DNA of 64,000 nt from Streptomonospora litoralis (lineage in GTDB: Bacteria; Actinomycetota; Actinomycetes; Streptosporangiales; Streptosporangiaceae): contig NZ_CP036455.1 of assembly GCF_004323735.1 (NCBI RefSeq), positions 1,111,101 through 1,175,100 on the forward strand, written 5' to 3'. This document shows, in pieces, positions 820 through 54,268 of this stretch. The position numbers and the translations under genes are program-made. The notes beneath the pieces are model-generated. The model was not told the DNA's origin and did no database searches. It saw nothing but the letters and a program-made list of their open reading frames with translations. Positions within the stretch are counted from its first letter, which is position 1. Each line of letters opens with the position of its first letter.

Positions 820-1464
820 CCAGGGGGCGGCGAGGGCGGTGGATGGCTGGGGCTGCGCCCAACGGTTCGGGTGCTCGCCGGACTCGGCGCGGCTTGGCCC
901 GTCTATCGTGAACTTATGGTCGCAGGAAAGCGCATTCCGCGGCCATAAGTTCACGATCATCGCCGGATGGACCGGCATAGGGGGCGCAGCAGCCACGAGG
1001 TGCACGAGAAGTTGACGTCGGGGGCGTTTTCGCGCCATTCGGTGCGCCTCGCGGGCCGTCGCCGCCGCGGCGCGGAGGGAGACCCGCCGGGAATTCGGGC
1101 ATTGGTGGGCAAAACATCCCGTTTTTTCGTATTGCGAAATGACGGTGCGAGGGCGGCACCTCGGGGCGGCACCGAGGCCGATGACACCGCACGTACGTGC
1201 ATCTCGTGACCTCGAACCGGCTGCATGACCGCCGTCGGCCGCCCCGCGTCGTGCCCCGCCGACAACCGGGCGGCGGCACCCGGGCTCGACCACCCGCGGC
1301 CAGGGGCCGGTGACCGCCGCCCCGCCGCACGCGCCACCGGCGAGCACCCGAACCGATGGGCGCAGGCCCGGCCCTCCGCCGCCGTCGCCGCCGCTTTTCA
1401 GTCAAGTCCACCCCGTCACCCGGCAGACCGACAAGGCCGCCCAGCGGACCCGAGCCGCCCCCGC
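820..1464 (-). repeat. non-coding modular repeat, copy 1 (bounded by inverted repeats)
   Basis: This copy lies between two convergent genes (stops at 797 and 1551). Read on the minus strand from 1464 it begins GGCGGCTCGGGTCCGCTGG, runs through a block of about 485 bases (to 978) closely similar to 28497-28980, then a hairpin module (905-975). It ends at 827-883 with an inverted copy of its own 1337-1396 segment. Both ends share the core CTGCGCCCA-C-GGTTCGGGTGCTCGCCGG with one difference. Indels between copies are not multiples of three, which argues against coding. No transposase is present. It could be a MITE-like element, a decayed mobile element or a structured RNA/terminator module. Confidence 0.75.
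905..957. repeat. 53-bp hairpin in repeat copy 1
   Basis: ATCGTGAACTTATGGTCGC (905-923) pairs with GCGGCCATAAGTTCACGAT (939-957) with only one T-G wobble. A few further pairs narrow the loop. The arms are much richer in A+T than their surroundings. The same hairpin occurs at 54035-54087 in inverted orientation, flanked by the same GGTCCATCCGGCGATG and GACGGGCCAAGCCGCGCC blocks. Confidence 0.85.
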
Positions 1465-3121: not shown

Positions 3122-3276
3122 CGCCGGAGAACCGGAGTGAACCTGGTTCTCATTCCGTTATCGCTGCTGCGGGGGACTTTCGGCGACGATCGCCGATCTG
3201 GGTGGAACCTGTTGTATTCTGGCACCCCTGCAGCGGGGGGCGTCAACCGGCCGGACACGTCAGCGAATGGAGCGGC

Positions 3277-20727: not shown

Positions 20728-23037
20728 GTGGATGCGGTGCCGCACGCGGTCGATCCCCAGCGTGTCGCGGAACACGGTGGCGCGGTGATGCGGCTCGTCG
20801 ACGAGATCTTTCCGTTGGTGGAGGGCTTCTACGTCGACCTGCACAAGAATCCGGAGCTCTCGCACCAGGAGAACCGCACCGCCGGCGCCGTGGCGGAGTG
20901 GCTCACGCGCGCGGGCTTCGAGGTCGAGACCGGTGTCGGCGGCGCCGGCGTCGTGGGTGTGCTGCGCAACGGCGACGGGCCCACGGTGCTGCTGCGCGCC
21001 GACATGGACGCGCTGCCGATCGAGGAGCGCACGGGTCTGCCGTACGCCAGCACCGCCCGCGGCCGCGACGACGACGGCCAGGACGTGCCGATCATGCACG
21101 CCTGCGGCCACGACGCCCACACCGCGTGCCTGGTGGGCACGGCCGACCTGCTCGCCGAGGCCCGCGACGAGTGGCGCGGAACGCTGATGGTGGTGGCCCA
21201 ACCCGGCGAGGAGACCCTCGACGGCGCCGTGGGCATGATCCGCGACGGCCTCTACACCCGCTTCGGCCGGCCCGACATCGCCCTGGCACAGCATCTCGGT
21301 CCCCAGCCCGCGGGCATGGTTGCGCACCGCTCCGGCACCATCATGGCCGCCACCACCAATCTGCGCGTACGGGTGTTCGGCACCGGCGGTCACGCTTCGC
21401 GCCCGGAGAGCACCGTCGATCCGGTGCTGATCGCGTCCAACATCGTCAACCGGCTGCAGACCGTCGTCGCGCGCGAGATCAGCCCCAGTGAAATGGCGGT
21501 GGTGACGGTGGGCGTGCTGCGCGCCGGGACCAAGGTCAACGTCATCCCCGAAGAGGCGTACCTGGAAGTCGACACCCGCGCACTGAACCCGGCCGTGGCC
21601 GAGCGCCTGCACAGCGCGATCGACCGGATCGTGCGGGCCGAGGCCGCCGCTTCGGGTGCCCAGCGCGAACCGGAGATCACCGTCGCGCGCGAGACCGGCG
21701 TGACCGCGAACGCCCCCGGCCCCACCGCCGAGGTGGTGGCCGCCCACCGCGCCTACTTCGGCGACGGTTACGTCGTCGAACTGCCCGAGCCGATCACGGG
21801 CAGCGAGGACTTCCCGGCCTTCGGCCTGCCCGGCGACCCCCAGCCGGTGCCCTACGTCTACTGGTTCCTCGGCTCCACGCCGCACGATGTGTGGGAGGCC
21901 GCGCCAGGCGGCACCCCCTACGAGAAGATGATGGGCGTCCCCACGACGCATTCGCCGTTCTTCGCCCCCGACCGGGAATCCACGCTGCGCGCGGGGCTCG
22001 CGGCACTGTCGCTGGGCGCGCTGACCTACCTCGGTACGCCCGAGGCGTCGGGCACCACGGGCGGGCAGCCGGCGATGAGCGCGTCTTCCGGGCCCGGCGA
22101 CGGGTCCGTTCCCGCAGCGCAGGCGGAACCGCCCGCGCCGGTGCACGCCGCGGGAGGGGACGAGCGGCCGGAGGGCCCGGGCGCGTTCGAGCCCGGCTAC
22201 GACGACTACGCGCCCGCCGCCGATTCGGGCGCCCGTCCGACCGCAGCGCCCGTGCCGCCGACCGCCCCCTACCCGGGTGAGCCCTACCCGGGTGAGCACG
22301 CGCCGGCGCCTGCCGCCTCCGACACCGACGGCGAGGCCGCAGAAGGCGACTCCACCGCCTACACCGACATGGACCGCTACCTCGGCGACGAGGACCAGGC
22401 CCCCGAATACGGTCCGCCGCCCGTCGGGCCGCCGCTGCCGCCCACCGCGGCGCCGCCGCCCCAGGGGCCGCCGATCTCCGCGCCGCCGCCGCAAGGCCCG
22501 CCGATCTCGGCCCCGCCGCCTCCGTCGGGAGCCGTACCCTACTCCGCCGAGCGCGACCCCGGCTTCGGGCCCTACCCGGCGGAGTCCCAGCCGCCGCAGC
22601 AGCCGGGAGAGCCCTTCCAGCAGGGAGAGCCGTTCCAGCAGCAACCGGAGCCGTACCAGCAGGGAGAGCCGTACCAGCCGGGAGACCCGTTCCAGTCGGG
22701 GCAGCCGGAGCCCTACCAGCAGGGCGAGCCCTACCAGCAGGGGCAGCCGTACCAGCAAGGTCGGCCGGAGCCCTACGGCTACGGGCAGCAGGCCGATCCC
22801 TACCAGCCGGCGCACCCTGAGCCCCACGGCCCCGGTCAGCCGGGCCCGCCGTACCAGCCGGGCACGGGCGGCCCCCACGACCCCGGACACCCGGTCGAGC
22901 AGTACGAGCCGTACGACGCGCACCGCAGCGGAGGCCCAGCCGAGCCCTACGACCCCCATTACTACGACCCGCAGTCGCCCGGCCGGTCCGGCGACCCGGA
23001 CCAGGATCCGCCGCAGGACCCGCCTTACCGCTTGTAA
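20728..23037 (+). CDS. M20 family amidohydrolase with long Pro/Gln-rich C-terminal tail
   Basis: A 769-residue protein. Residues 20-435 form an M20D-type metallohydrolase: RADMDALPIEE, MHACGHDAHTACLVG, VAQPGEET and the late GSEDFPAFG supply the two-metal site and catalytic glutamate; the dimerisation domain lies between. Relatives cleave N-acyl amino acids, hippurate or amide conjugates. Residues about 437-769 are a disordered tail, first Ala/Pro/Gly/Asp, then tandem units of the type PYQQGE and PYQQGQ. Normal relatives are about 400-430 residues, so the tail is extra. There is no signal peptide. GTG 20728 follows AGGAG at 20714-20718. Confidence 0.85.
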   Translation: MDAVPHAVDPQRVAEHGGAVMRLVDEIFPLVEGFYVDLHKNPELSHQENRTAGAVAEWLTRAGFEVETGVGGAGVVGVLRNGDGPTVLLRADMDALPIEERTGLPYASTARGRDDDGQDVPIMHACGHDAHTACLVGTADLLAEARDEWRGTLMVVAQPGEETLDGAVGMIRDGLYTRFGRPDIALAQHLGPQPAGMVAHRSGTIMAATTNLRVRVFGTGGHASRPESTVDPVLIASNIVNRLQTVVAREISPSEMAVVTVGVLRAGTKVNVIPEEAYLEVDTRALNPAVAERLHSAIDRIVRAEAAASGAQREPEITVARETGVTANAPGPTAEVVAAHRAYFGDGYVVELPEPITGSEDFPAFGLPGDPQPVPYVYWFLGSTPHDVWEAAPGGTPYEKMMGVPTTHSPFFAPDRESTLRAGLAALSLGALTYLGTPEASGTTGGQPAMSASSGPGDGSVPAAQAEPPAPVHAAGGDERPEGPGAFEPGYDDYAPAADSGARPTAAPVPPTAPYPGEPYPGEHAPAPAASDTDGEAAEGDSTAYTDMDRYLGDEDQAPEYGPPPVGPPLPPTAAPPPQGPPISAPPPQGPPISAPPPPSGAVPYSAERDPGFGPYPAESQPPQQPGEPFQQGEPFQQQPEPYQQGEPYQPGDPFQSGQPEPYQQGEPYQQGQPYQQGRPEPYGYGQQADPYQPAHPEPHGPGQPGPPYQPGTGGPHDPGHPVEQYEPYDAHRSGGPAEPYDPHYYDPQSPGRSGDPDQDPPQDPPYRL
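22608..22770 (+). repeat. tandem coding repeat (PYQQGE-type) in M20 tail
   Basis: About nine imperfect units of 15-24 bases (core CCGTACCAGCAGGGAGAG) encode Glu-Pro-(Phe/Tyr)-Gln-Gln-Gly-like repeats. Unit length is always a multiple of three, so the frame is kept. Confidence 0.8.
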
Positions 23038-28467: not shown

Positions 28468-29470
28468 CAGGGGGCGGCGTGGGAGACGGGGGCGGGGCGG
28501 CGGCTCGGGTCCGCTGGGCGGCCTTGTCGGTCTGCCGGGTGGCGGGTGGTCTTCGGGAAAAGCGGCGGCGACGGTGGCGGATGGCCGGGCCTGCGCCCAA
28601 CGGGCCGGGGGCCCGCCGGTGACGGCGGCCGACGGGGCGGCGACGAGCGCCGGGGGCGCCGCCCGGTTGTCGGCGCGGGCCTGATGCGGGGCGGTCGGCG
28701 GCGGTCATGTGGCCGGGTCGGGGCCACGAGATGCACGTAGGTGCGGCGGCATCGGCCTCGGCGCCGCCCTGAGGCGCCGCCCACGCACCGCCATTCCGCG
28801 ATGCGAAAGAACCCGGGGTGTTTTGTCCACCAGTGCCCGAGTTCCCGGTGGGCCCGCGCCCGCGCTGCGGCGGCGGTGGCGCACGAGGCGCACCGAATGG
28901 CGCGAAAACAGCCCCCGACGTCAACTTTTCGTGTGTCTCGTGGTCGCTGCGCTGGCCGAGGGCGCGCGCAAAACGGGCATAGGCCTCAAAGGTCGGCCTC
29001 ATCGGGGGGTGAGGCTCCCGGCGGCGACGCCCGGGCGCCACGAGCGACGTGTCGTCGCCCCCCGGCCCCCGACCGGGCGCACCCCGGGCCGCGCGAGCAC
29101 CCGCGACCGCGCCCCGCCGCGCGGGGCCTCCGGCCTGCGCGGGCCCGGCCGGAACACGGCGGCGCCTCCCCGGCCCCGCGCCCGCTATGTCCGATGTCTA
29201 GGAGTCGGCCGCGGCGATCGTGGCCGAATTCCCAAAGAACGCCGCTGGATTTCGTCATACGGGCACGATCGCCGCGTCGCCCTGCGACATAGCGGACACA
29301 CGGCCCCTCCCTGACACCCGCACCGCCCCTCGTCGCCCACCGCCACCGCCACCGGCGAGCACCCGACCCGACGACCGCAGGCCCGGCCATCCGCCACCGT
29401 CGCCGCCGCTTTTCCCGAAGACCACCCGCTGCCCGGCAGACCAACAAGGCCGCACAGCCAACCCGACCCG
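28468..29470 (+). repeat. non-coding modular repeat, copy 2 (long, with inverted-repeat ends)
   Basis: Starting right after the CPBP stop, 28497-28980 matches the minus strand of 978-1464 over its full length, with the shared blocks GGCGGCTCGGGTCCGCTGG, TTGTCGGTCTGCCGGGTG, CGAGATGCACGTA and CGCACCGAATGGCGCGAAAA. The first 130 bases (28497-28627) recur inverted at 29347-29465, ending in an almost identical CTTGTTGGTCTGCCGGGCA. Between them lies a palindrome (29182-29292) unrelated in sequence to that of copies 1 and 3. No frame is conserved across copies. Confidence 0.75.
29182..29292. repeat. imperfect 111-bp palindrome in repeat copy 2
   Basis: CGCTATGTC (29182-29190) pairs with GACATAGCG (29284-29292), and GCGGCGATCGTG with CACGATCGCCGC nearer the centre, with internal mismatched bulges. 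The loop region (about 29226-29257) is markedly A+T-rich. It takes the place held by the 53-bp hairpin in the other copies. Confidence 0.65.
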
Positions 29471-29482
29471 CCGATCCGCCGA

Positions 29483-29528
29483 CCACCGCCACCGGCGAAC
29501 ACCCGACCCGACGCCCGCTGCCCCGGCC
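29483..29528. repeat. extra partial copy of repeat end
   Basis: 46 bases (ACCGCCACCGGCGAACACCC onward) repeat 29343-29388 with about 90% identity in direct orientation. It is a tandem remnant of the right end of repeat copy 2. Confidence 0.7.
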
Positions 29529-29635
29529 CCGCCGGCCGTCGGCGGTCCGGGGGTCGCCGGGTGGTGCCTGCCCCCCGGCGTGCGTTCGGGCCTGCCGCCC
29601 TGCTGGGGGCGGAGGCCATCGGGCAGGATGGTGGG

Positions 29636-53734: not shown

Positions 53735-54203
53735 GGGGGCGGCTCGGGTCTGCTGTGCGGCCTTGTTGGTCTGCCGGGTGGATGGGTGGCCTTGGCTGAA
53801 AAGCGGCGCCGAGCACGGCGGTGGGCCCGGCCCGTGCCCAACGGGCCGGGTGCCCGCCTGTGGCCCATCCGGCGGGGCAGCGACGGCAGCAGCGGCGCCG
53901 GGTCTGGGATGGTCGGAGCGGTGGTCACCGGCCCCGGCCGCGGTGGTCTGAGCCGGGAGCGCCGCGCGGTTGTCGGCGCGGGCTCGACTGCGCCCGCCGA
54001 GGCGATGTCCGGTATGCCGGTCCATCCGGCGATGATCGTGAACTTATGGCCGCGGGATGCGCTTTCCTGCGACCATAAGTTCACGATAGACGGGCCAAGC
54101 CGCGCCGACTCGACGGCACCGGTGCCGCCCAGCAGACCGGGGCCGCCGCCCCGTCGCGTGGGTCACCGGCGGGCACCCGAACCGACCTTCGCGGGCCCGC
54201 CCC
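53735..54203 (+). repeat. non-coding modular repeat, copy 3 (shortened)
   Basis: Between two convergent genes (stops 53663 and 54269). It begins CAGGGGGCGGCTCGGGTC, continues with TTGTTGGTCTGCCGGGTG and AAAAGCGGC, then the block ending CGGTTGTCGGCG-CGGG. It lacks the roughly 200-base block ending CGACGTCAACTT of copies 1 and 2. The 53-bp hairpin module follows, and the copy ends with the inverted end CACCGGCGGGCACCCGAACCG. It is on the strand opposite to copy 1. Confidence 0.72.
54035..54087. repeat. 53-bp hairpin in repeat copy 3
   Basis: Inverted copy of 905-957: ATCGTGAACTTATGGCCGC (54035-54053) pairs with 54069-54087, with the same single T-G wobble position. The inner part differs from copy 1 by only one base. 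Confidence 0.85.
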
Positions 54204-54268
54204 CGCACCGCTCTCGCGACGCATCCCCAGCTCGTCAGTGGGTTCATGCCGCCGGCCGTCCGCCGCCG

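Follow-up and report, generated by a model that had tools for sequence, protein, structure and literature searches.

Foldback-like non-coding elements, in part with IS5-type tips, dispersed over the chromosome of Streptomonospora litoralis

A large family of non-coding elements with inverted tandem arrays

Three repeats in a 64,000-nucleotide stretch of the Streptomonospora litoralis chromosome (NZ_CP036455.1, positions 1,111,101 to 1,175,100; hereafter the window) belong to a large family of elements on this chromosome that do not code and are apparently mobile. We firmly describe these as foldback-like dispersed elements and, less firmly, as elements moved by an IS5 transposase. A preliminary description of the window had seen a three-copy family; profile mapping of the host genome (G000; a 5.72-Mb chromosome and a second contig) instead placed at least 138 stretches, which occupy 118 kb, 2.06% of the chromosome, and come from 133 of the 137 loci analysed. 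Their median length is 914 bp (range 72–1959 bp; 138 spans). Patterns for three parts of the element, hairpin H, the A unit and core segment C1, matched 83, 225 and 62 times in the host genome, and the reversed control patterns gave 0 matches. The 137 loci comprise 119 clusters found with the H, A and C1 patterns and 18 places found with the tip pattern. All copy numbers are lower bounds, the A-unit loci having been drawn from 100 of the 225 pattern matches, and an A-unit model search of the host genome located A units outside the analysed loci as well. Plasmid and phage collections, searched with one element, gave no match in either. Among GTDB contigs, which possibly do not include the host genome, the exact H pattern occurs in one stretch of a Marinamargulisbacteria metagenome-assembled genome; this was taken as unrelated.

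A complete copy consists of a 15-bp tip (TL), A units running inward from the left, core segments C1 and C2, a hairpin, A units in the opposite orientation and a second tip (T2). Written with its flanks, the element is CTA-[R GCCGTGTTTAAGAA - outward tandem A units - C1 - C2 - hairpin(s) - inverted A units - TTCTTAAACACGGC Y]-TAG. The tandem A unit is ~130 bp long, and C1 and C2 span 351 and 175 model positions, respectively. In all 91 two-sided elements the A units are ordered + .. + and then - .. -, with a mean of 4.1 and a maximum of 9 units per element; the remaining 47 spans are one-sided. Hairpin H is found in 88 of the 119 loci, an alternative hairpin H' without H in 25 and neither in 6, and one of the 88 holds both, in separate elements. 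H' occurs in 29 loci in total, and at L167, outside the 119-locus set, the two stand together in one span. A third hairpin, K, gave 36 matches in 35 loci and lies at most 40 bp from H in 29.

No coding signal was seen in the core. In 79 aligned C1 hits, which are 83.5% alike on average, column divergence is flat across the three codon phases (.111/.109/.104), so a coding core was rejected; no gene was called by our script, which uses GC content at third codon positions (GC3), in any of the 138 spans. The non-coding character proposed in the preliminary description was thus borne out. Within C1 of one element, an inverted repeat is 94% complementary over 16 nt, with arms ~190 bp apart (L113:2984-2999 / 3190-3205).

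Tips, target site and the link to IS5

The tip consists of RGCCGTGTTTAAGAA and is preceded by the target bases CTA; the same sequence forms both ends of IS5-family elements in relatives. A profile recognises it at 74 of 242 element ends. A mismatch search returned 73 tips, with TA at the expected place in 57 and CTA in 47. Of 22 two-tip spans, 21 combine one TL with one T2 and one has two TL. Where such a TL/T2 pair encloses a core that can be oriented, 17 of 20 elements carry TL at the end where C1 lies, and because this arrangement is so constant, tips and core seem mostly to have travelled together. The CTA..TAG flanks would fit a duplication of TA at insertion.

Across 60 genomes, the tip with CTA was found in six; a reversed-pattern control was found in none of the 60. 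In G005, G023 and G058, two such tips bound elements of 1039–1063 bp. All nine of these that were examined start with CTAG, and they end with CTAG in eight cases and CTAA in one. The 302-amino-acid proteins of the G005 and G023 elements are IS5 transposases (Pfam DUF4096 and DDE_Tnp_1, NCBIfam NF033580), and in the G058 copy the frame is in two overlapping pieces. The IS5 elements sharing these tips are presumably of the type labelled IS427.

No IS5-type transposase was found in the host genome by a PF01609 search, which the G005 and G023 transposases pass with 62.9 or 51.6 bits; its three matches are all accounted for by three copies of ISAs1. IS630 was considered as a mobiliser and set aside: PF13358 gives three IS630 matches, and the one inspected (L157) has other ends. 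This IS630-family element (L157:3020-4155, host chromosome ~1968649-1969784) sits exactly inside the TTAG that ends one repeat, and its transposase has two more copies in the host genome.

The family was also compared with miniature inverted-repeat transposable elements (MITEs). No transposase lies inside the elements, terminal inverted repeats matching an autonomous insertion sequence occur in the tipped subset only, and the lengths given above (median 914 bp, range 72–1959 bp) compare with a MITE range of 50–1000 bp stated in PMC4596501. The preliminary description had called the repeats MITE-like. This is apt for their non-coding nature, their intergenic position and the IS5-type tips of a subset, but not for their inverted ends, which are arrays of tandem units in a foldback layout. 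At L063:1769-2920, a tipped element has a tRNA-Met gene on either side (the two are 97.6% alike over 164 bp including their surroundings); it starts immediately behind the terminator-like hairpin that belongs to the first gene.

Stop codons and genomic placement

The preliminary description had also suggested that the element targets transcription ends. Our analysis points to CTAG as the target, with flanks that fit a TA duplication, and to the link with stop codons as secondary. CTAG occurs 18 times in the window, compared with 153 expected from base composition alone; 13 of these sites are intergenic, three are stops and two lie in called genes. At 22 of the 73 tips, a neighbouring called gene has its stop codon in the triplet just ahead of GCC, in which the target TA and the first base of the element make up TAA or TAG. 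Elements would adjoin stop codons because their target is rare inside genes and their end rebuilds the stop. CTAG, scarce in GC-rich genes, would survive between genes and at stops, so that insertions accumulate behind stop codons, and the first base of the element (A or G after TA) would leave the gene unharmed. Of the 138 sites, 51 are convergent, 61 tandem and 7 divergent, making 119 classified, and 19 are unclassified; these gene contexts are approximate, since they rest on the simple GC3 script.

The same chassis with other middles in a sister species

In searching the relatives, the best 16 candidates per genome were scored for the H-C1 part of copy 1 of the window, and the best 84 for the A-unit model. 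Matches to the H-C1 part were short and weak; they occurred in 19 of 40 relatives (26–98 bp, E no better than 6e-6), and we took them as chance in GC-rich DNA. A query that included A units gave 121 matches in the same-genus genome G004, mostly to A, and a few C1 matches of ~40 bp in G002 and G003. The A-unit model is present in high copy only in G000 (at least 84) and G004 (at least 104); G001, G002, G003 and G005 have 1–9 matches, and the other 54 genomes contribute one weak match in one genome.

Fifteen array-rich loci of G004 hold 195 A units. The order + .. + then - .. - recurs in 15 of 15, around cores of 646–1126 bp with other hairpins, and none of these loci has a match to the C1, C2, H, H' or tip profiles. 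Because G004 has arrays in the same order without C1, C2, H or H', two species of the genus combine one chassis with different middles. Both hallmarks of foldback elements are therefore present, namely long inverted ends of tandem subrepeats, in every two-sided element of the host and every array locus of G004, and a variable middle, through H and H' in the host and through other cores in G004. Short elements with IS5-type tips and a different, inverted-repeat-rich interior were observed in G004 too (L212, L217, L221 and L225), with 287 bp between the tips in L217 and ~343 bp in L225.

Folding and covariation of the hairpins

H and H' fold better than shuffled sequences; a 148-nt piece of C1 does not. 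Covariation in H is modest, with 9 pairs changed on both sides compared with 4.1 after shuffling, and slid controls reach 7. K and a G004 hairpin, V, have their centre in common and were taken as homologous. Their joint set contains 33 of the 36 K copies, selected by homology (one was dropped for an indel and two as partial), and 13 V copies from 13 of the 15 G004 loci whose outer stems fitted the pattern, a choice that leans towards paired copies. It replaced a first K set that had been picked by palindromicity and was biased. In the joint set, 18 of 28 pairs changed on both sides, giving 153 cells compared with 51.6 after shuffling and at most 27 in slid controls, a contrast that lies largely between the two species, so that cells are not independent events. 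In a further 30 cells the change is confined to one side, and 96 cells are unpaired; G-U intermediates are few, and pair types are no more numerous than in shuffles (86 of 500).

Arm-to-arm correction in DNA has been proposed as a mechanism for such changes (PMC8794818). The excess of two-sided over G-U changes in K/V favours correction at the DNA level, with selection also possible. The covariation check suggested in the preliminary description returned a strong signal in K/V and a modest one in H, without singling out RNA. The terminator or RNA module proposed there gained no support, as a scan of the window gave 0 Rfam matches at gathering scores and arm correction in DNA explains the K/V covariation equally well. 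A further hairpin type (ATCTATTGCG ... CGC/GCAATAG-like) was seen in or near some elements (L085:3208-3267, ~L063:2117-2178).

Possible exchange between copies, and chromosomal distribution

The 62 C1 copies longer than 250 bp give a weak, star-like tree. Both hairpin types, H and H', are scattered over it, with 16 changes compared with 18.3 after shuffling (22 of 200 shuffles were as low), and its starred branches force two hairpin changes. A division into two clean subfamilies by hairpin type was therefore rejected. The nearest C1 relative lies at most 60 kb away for 10 of the 62 copies, compared with 1.9% in 2000 permutations. Nine close pairs were aligned at 92% identity: five match over 772–1126 bp, one over 422 bp and three show no such match. 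In two close pairs (L052, L069) the match spans the whole mapped extent of one copy, and in others it lies inside only; for this reason, whole-element copying and gene conversion are both possible.

The 119 loci are spread around the chromosome with a mean gap of 48 kb and a coefficient of variation of 0.87, which is near random. No orientation bias by chromosome half was detected (29/26 and 16/16), with the contig start taken as the origin. Only 3 of the 119 loci start between 2.5 and 3.0 Mb, perhaps the terminus, compared with 10–18 in each of the first five half-megabases. The region from 3.5 to 4.5 Mb is also thin (5 and 4 loci), and five loci beyond 5.5 Mb are not in the histogram.

The three window copies

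Copies 1, 2 and 3 of the window (loci L070, L071 and L072) extend by profile mapping over ~824-1459, ~28499-29530 and ~53738-54224 (Table 1). The blocks that the preliminary description had reported as shared by copies 1 and 2, and a third copy from 53735, were found where it had placed them. Copies 1 and 2 match in inverted orientation at 1121-1256 / 28677-28812 (84%), 1020-1121 / 28814-28915 (83%) and 1412-1462 / 28496-28546 (96%), and 54013-54111 of copy 3 is 98% complementary to 881-979 of copy 1. Repeat comparison likewise recovered an inverted version of each copy's own start near its end, at 826-881 / 1337-1392 in copy 1, 28491-28629 / 29342-29480 in copy 2 and 53810-53882 / 54144-54216 in copy 3. 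The open frames ahead of the copies were treated as genes and have their ends at 797, 28467 and 53663; as had been noted, all three copies start less than 100 bp later, and two of them have convergent neighbours (copies 1 and 3). Copy 2 has tandem genes on either side. Its H' (29185-29301) folds at -57.0 kcal/mol, with a z-score of -5.3 on the + strand and -3.6 on the - strand. Elsewhere in the window, tandem repeats with a period of ~18 bp at 22584-22778 are probably coding.

Table 1. Parts of the three window copies, with positions in the window.
Feature	Position	Strand	Basis
Copy 1, half A unit (model positions 67-124), left array	824..881	+	profile mapping
Copy 1, hairpin cassette H	883..964	-	profile mapping; fold of 890-975 + strand -46.1 kcal/mol, z -6.0
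Copy 1, core C1, truncated, C2 not found	974..1274	-	profile mapping
Copy 1, A unit, right array	1332..1459	-	profile mapping
Copy 2, A unit, left array	28499..28625	+	profile mapping
Copy 2, core C1	28658..29006	+	profile mapping
Copy 2, core C2	29019..29173	+	profile mapping
Copy 2, alternative hairpin cassette H', in the slot of H elsewhere	29186..29298	+	profile mapping, fold
Copy 2, A unit, right array	29346..29474	-	profile mapping
Copy 2, partial A unit, right array	29485..29530	-	profile mapping
Copy 3, A unit, left array	53738..53864	+	profile mapping
Copy 3, remnant of C1-start segment	53929..53983	+	repeat pairing with 28626-28680 of copy 2
Copy 3, hairpin cassette H	54028..54108	+	profile mapping
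Copy 3, half A unit, right array	54162..54224	-	profile mapping

Origin and spread of the family

We consider it probable that the family is a non-autonomous, foldback-like IS5 derivative that was moved by an IS5 transposase, has since lost access to that transposase and was reshaped by recombination. As judged from the ends, an IS5-family transposase acting in trans would bind the tips, excise the whole unit and join it into CTAG, duplicating TA. Between such events, the A arrays would grow and shrink, the middle would be exchanged (H for H', or with K added) or flipped, and some copies would be homogenised by gene conversion. Recombination between the inverted arrays would flip the core relative to the tips. 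Since the transposase is no longer detectable in the host genome, most copies are presumably eroding.

Several observations weigh against this account. Neither end is tipped in 66 of 118 host loci, many tipless arrays start at an A-unit boundary, and the three window copies themselves are without recognisable tips. A looser tip pattern gave 77 matches and its control 4. In the end stretches compared, resemblance to the IS5 elements stops after the 15-bp tip. At L108, the only site compared, there is no clean empty site, and 1.7–4.2 kb of other DNA lies between the flanks in relatives. Over all pairs, C1 divergence is unrelated to distance (Spearman 0.017, p 0.46). Tips are reversed with respect to the core in 3 of the 20 two-tip elements (L043, L065, L081), and a two-mismatch search of the G004 arrays gave only seven tip-like sites, in 6 of the 15 loci, all internal and none at the outer ends; the arrays may thus spread, now or formerly, without IS5 tips. 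The inverted arrays and hairpin core could accordingly be an older, separate repeat that spreads otherwise, by recombination or conversion or through a nuclease acting on the hairpins, and that captured IS5 tips in this lineage, the tips carrying one branch. The tipless host loci, the G004 arrays and hairpins, the reversed cores, the scatter of hairpin types over the C1 tree and the sequence common to some neighbouring copies all agree with such a history. We nevertheless regard it as unlikely, if worth serious weight, because the fixed arrangement of tips and core in most two-tip elements is expected of a unit moved whole, and because the G004 sample was picked for array-rich matches, in which tipped copies could be missed.

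It is a good deal less probable that the elements are retained for a function of their hairpins, for example as two-way terminators or stabilisers of mRNA 3' ends between convergent genes. The surplus of convergent over divergent sites, the folding of H and H' and the K/V covariation would suit such a role, but the placement is accounted for by CTAG targeting and by harm to promoters, about half of the classified sites lie between tandem genes, the single terminator-like site in copy 1 is within the range of shuffles, and the predominance of two-sided over one-sided changes fits arm-to-arm correction in DNA (PMC8794818). A role in organising the chromosome, like that of bacterial interspersed mosaic elements (BIMEs) or other nucleoid sites, seems very improbable: the loci are indeed spread right round the chromosome, but with gaps close to random and no orientation bias by half, and high-copy A units occur in just two of six same-genus genomes.

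We tentatively offer a broader reading, which we think possible rather than likely. The family may be a bacterial counterpart of foldback elements, in which a durable chassis of inverted arrays takes in, flips and replaces hairpins (H, H', K, V and others) within one genus. The stems would be renewed by arm-to-arm template switching, stop-restoring insertion at CTAG would provide a safe haven, and the arrays, not the tips, would be the conserved working part.

Relation to known repeat families and significance

Foldback architecture has been described from eukaryotes. The Drosophila foldback elements Tetris and Galileo have inverted ends of tandem subrepeats (~220 bp in Tetris), a variable middle and chimeras formed by conversion, and their tips also occur in a MITE and, probably, in one autonomous element (PMC4079207; PMC3573991). 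The elements described here have the same long inverted ends and variable middle; unlike Tetris and Galileo, they reside in a bacterium, bear IS5-type tips and hold in their middle long hairpins, some of them perfect, that differ between copies and species. The likeness appears to be one of structure, and we claim neither descent nor sequence kinship. Nothing ties the family to the Galileo lineage, whose source is the P superfamily, beyond the similar architecture; the tips are those of IS5, and no search for a P-type transposase was made.

Among bacterial elements, the nearest that we recognised is BrickBuilt of Porphyromonas gingivalis, an intergenic MITE with a minisatellite, present in 19 copies of which 4 have both ends, and with ends that resemble those of insertion sequences, one IS5-family element being among those listed (PMC4596501). 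Bacterial host, intergenic position, internal tandem repeats and IS-like ends are shared. BrickBuilt has one array of 23-nt direct repeats, whereas here two inverted arrays of ~130-bp units surround a hairpin core at more than 100 loci. In our searches of open-access literature we recognised no bacterial element with inverted tandem arrays, and the accessible text of a 2024 review of prokaryotic MITEs (PMC10969869) does not contain the words 'tandem', 'foldback' or 'Streptomyces'. RUP of Streptococcus pneumoniae, related to IS630-Spn1, is 107 bp long, has 108 intergenic copies with IS tips and inserts at TA (PMC2229807). With RUP and other bacterial MITEs, the present elements share a non-autonomous nature, intergenic position, IS tips and insertion at TA; the IS family of their tips is a different one. 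To our knowledge, RUP has neither arrays nor cassettes.

Escherichia coli IS5 favours CTAG and makes a 4-bp duplication, YTAR (PMC5493358). IS5 insertion sequences have their tip sequence and CTAG-type target in common with the elements here, but they encode a transposase, are ~1 kb long and, in E. coli, duplicate 4 bp, whereas the flanks here would fit a 2-bp duplication of TA. High-copy intergenic palindromes in mosaics also recall repetitive extragenic palindromes (REPs), BIMEs and REPINs; unlike REPs, which measure 20–40 bp (PMC3733652), H, H' and K are ~60–115 bp long and lie inside arrays.

CTAG targeting with rebuilding of the stop codon offers a simple reason for repeats that follow stop codons in GC-rich genomes. 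Given more than 100 copies, a sister species that combines the same chassis with another core, and relatives that hold full-length candidate IS5 partners, two questions become testable: what function inverted tandem arrays serve in a transposon, and whether it is selection or template switching during replication that maintains long perfect hairpins.
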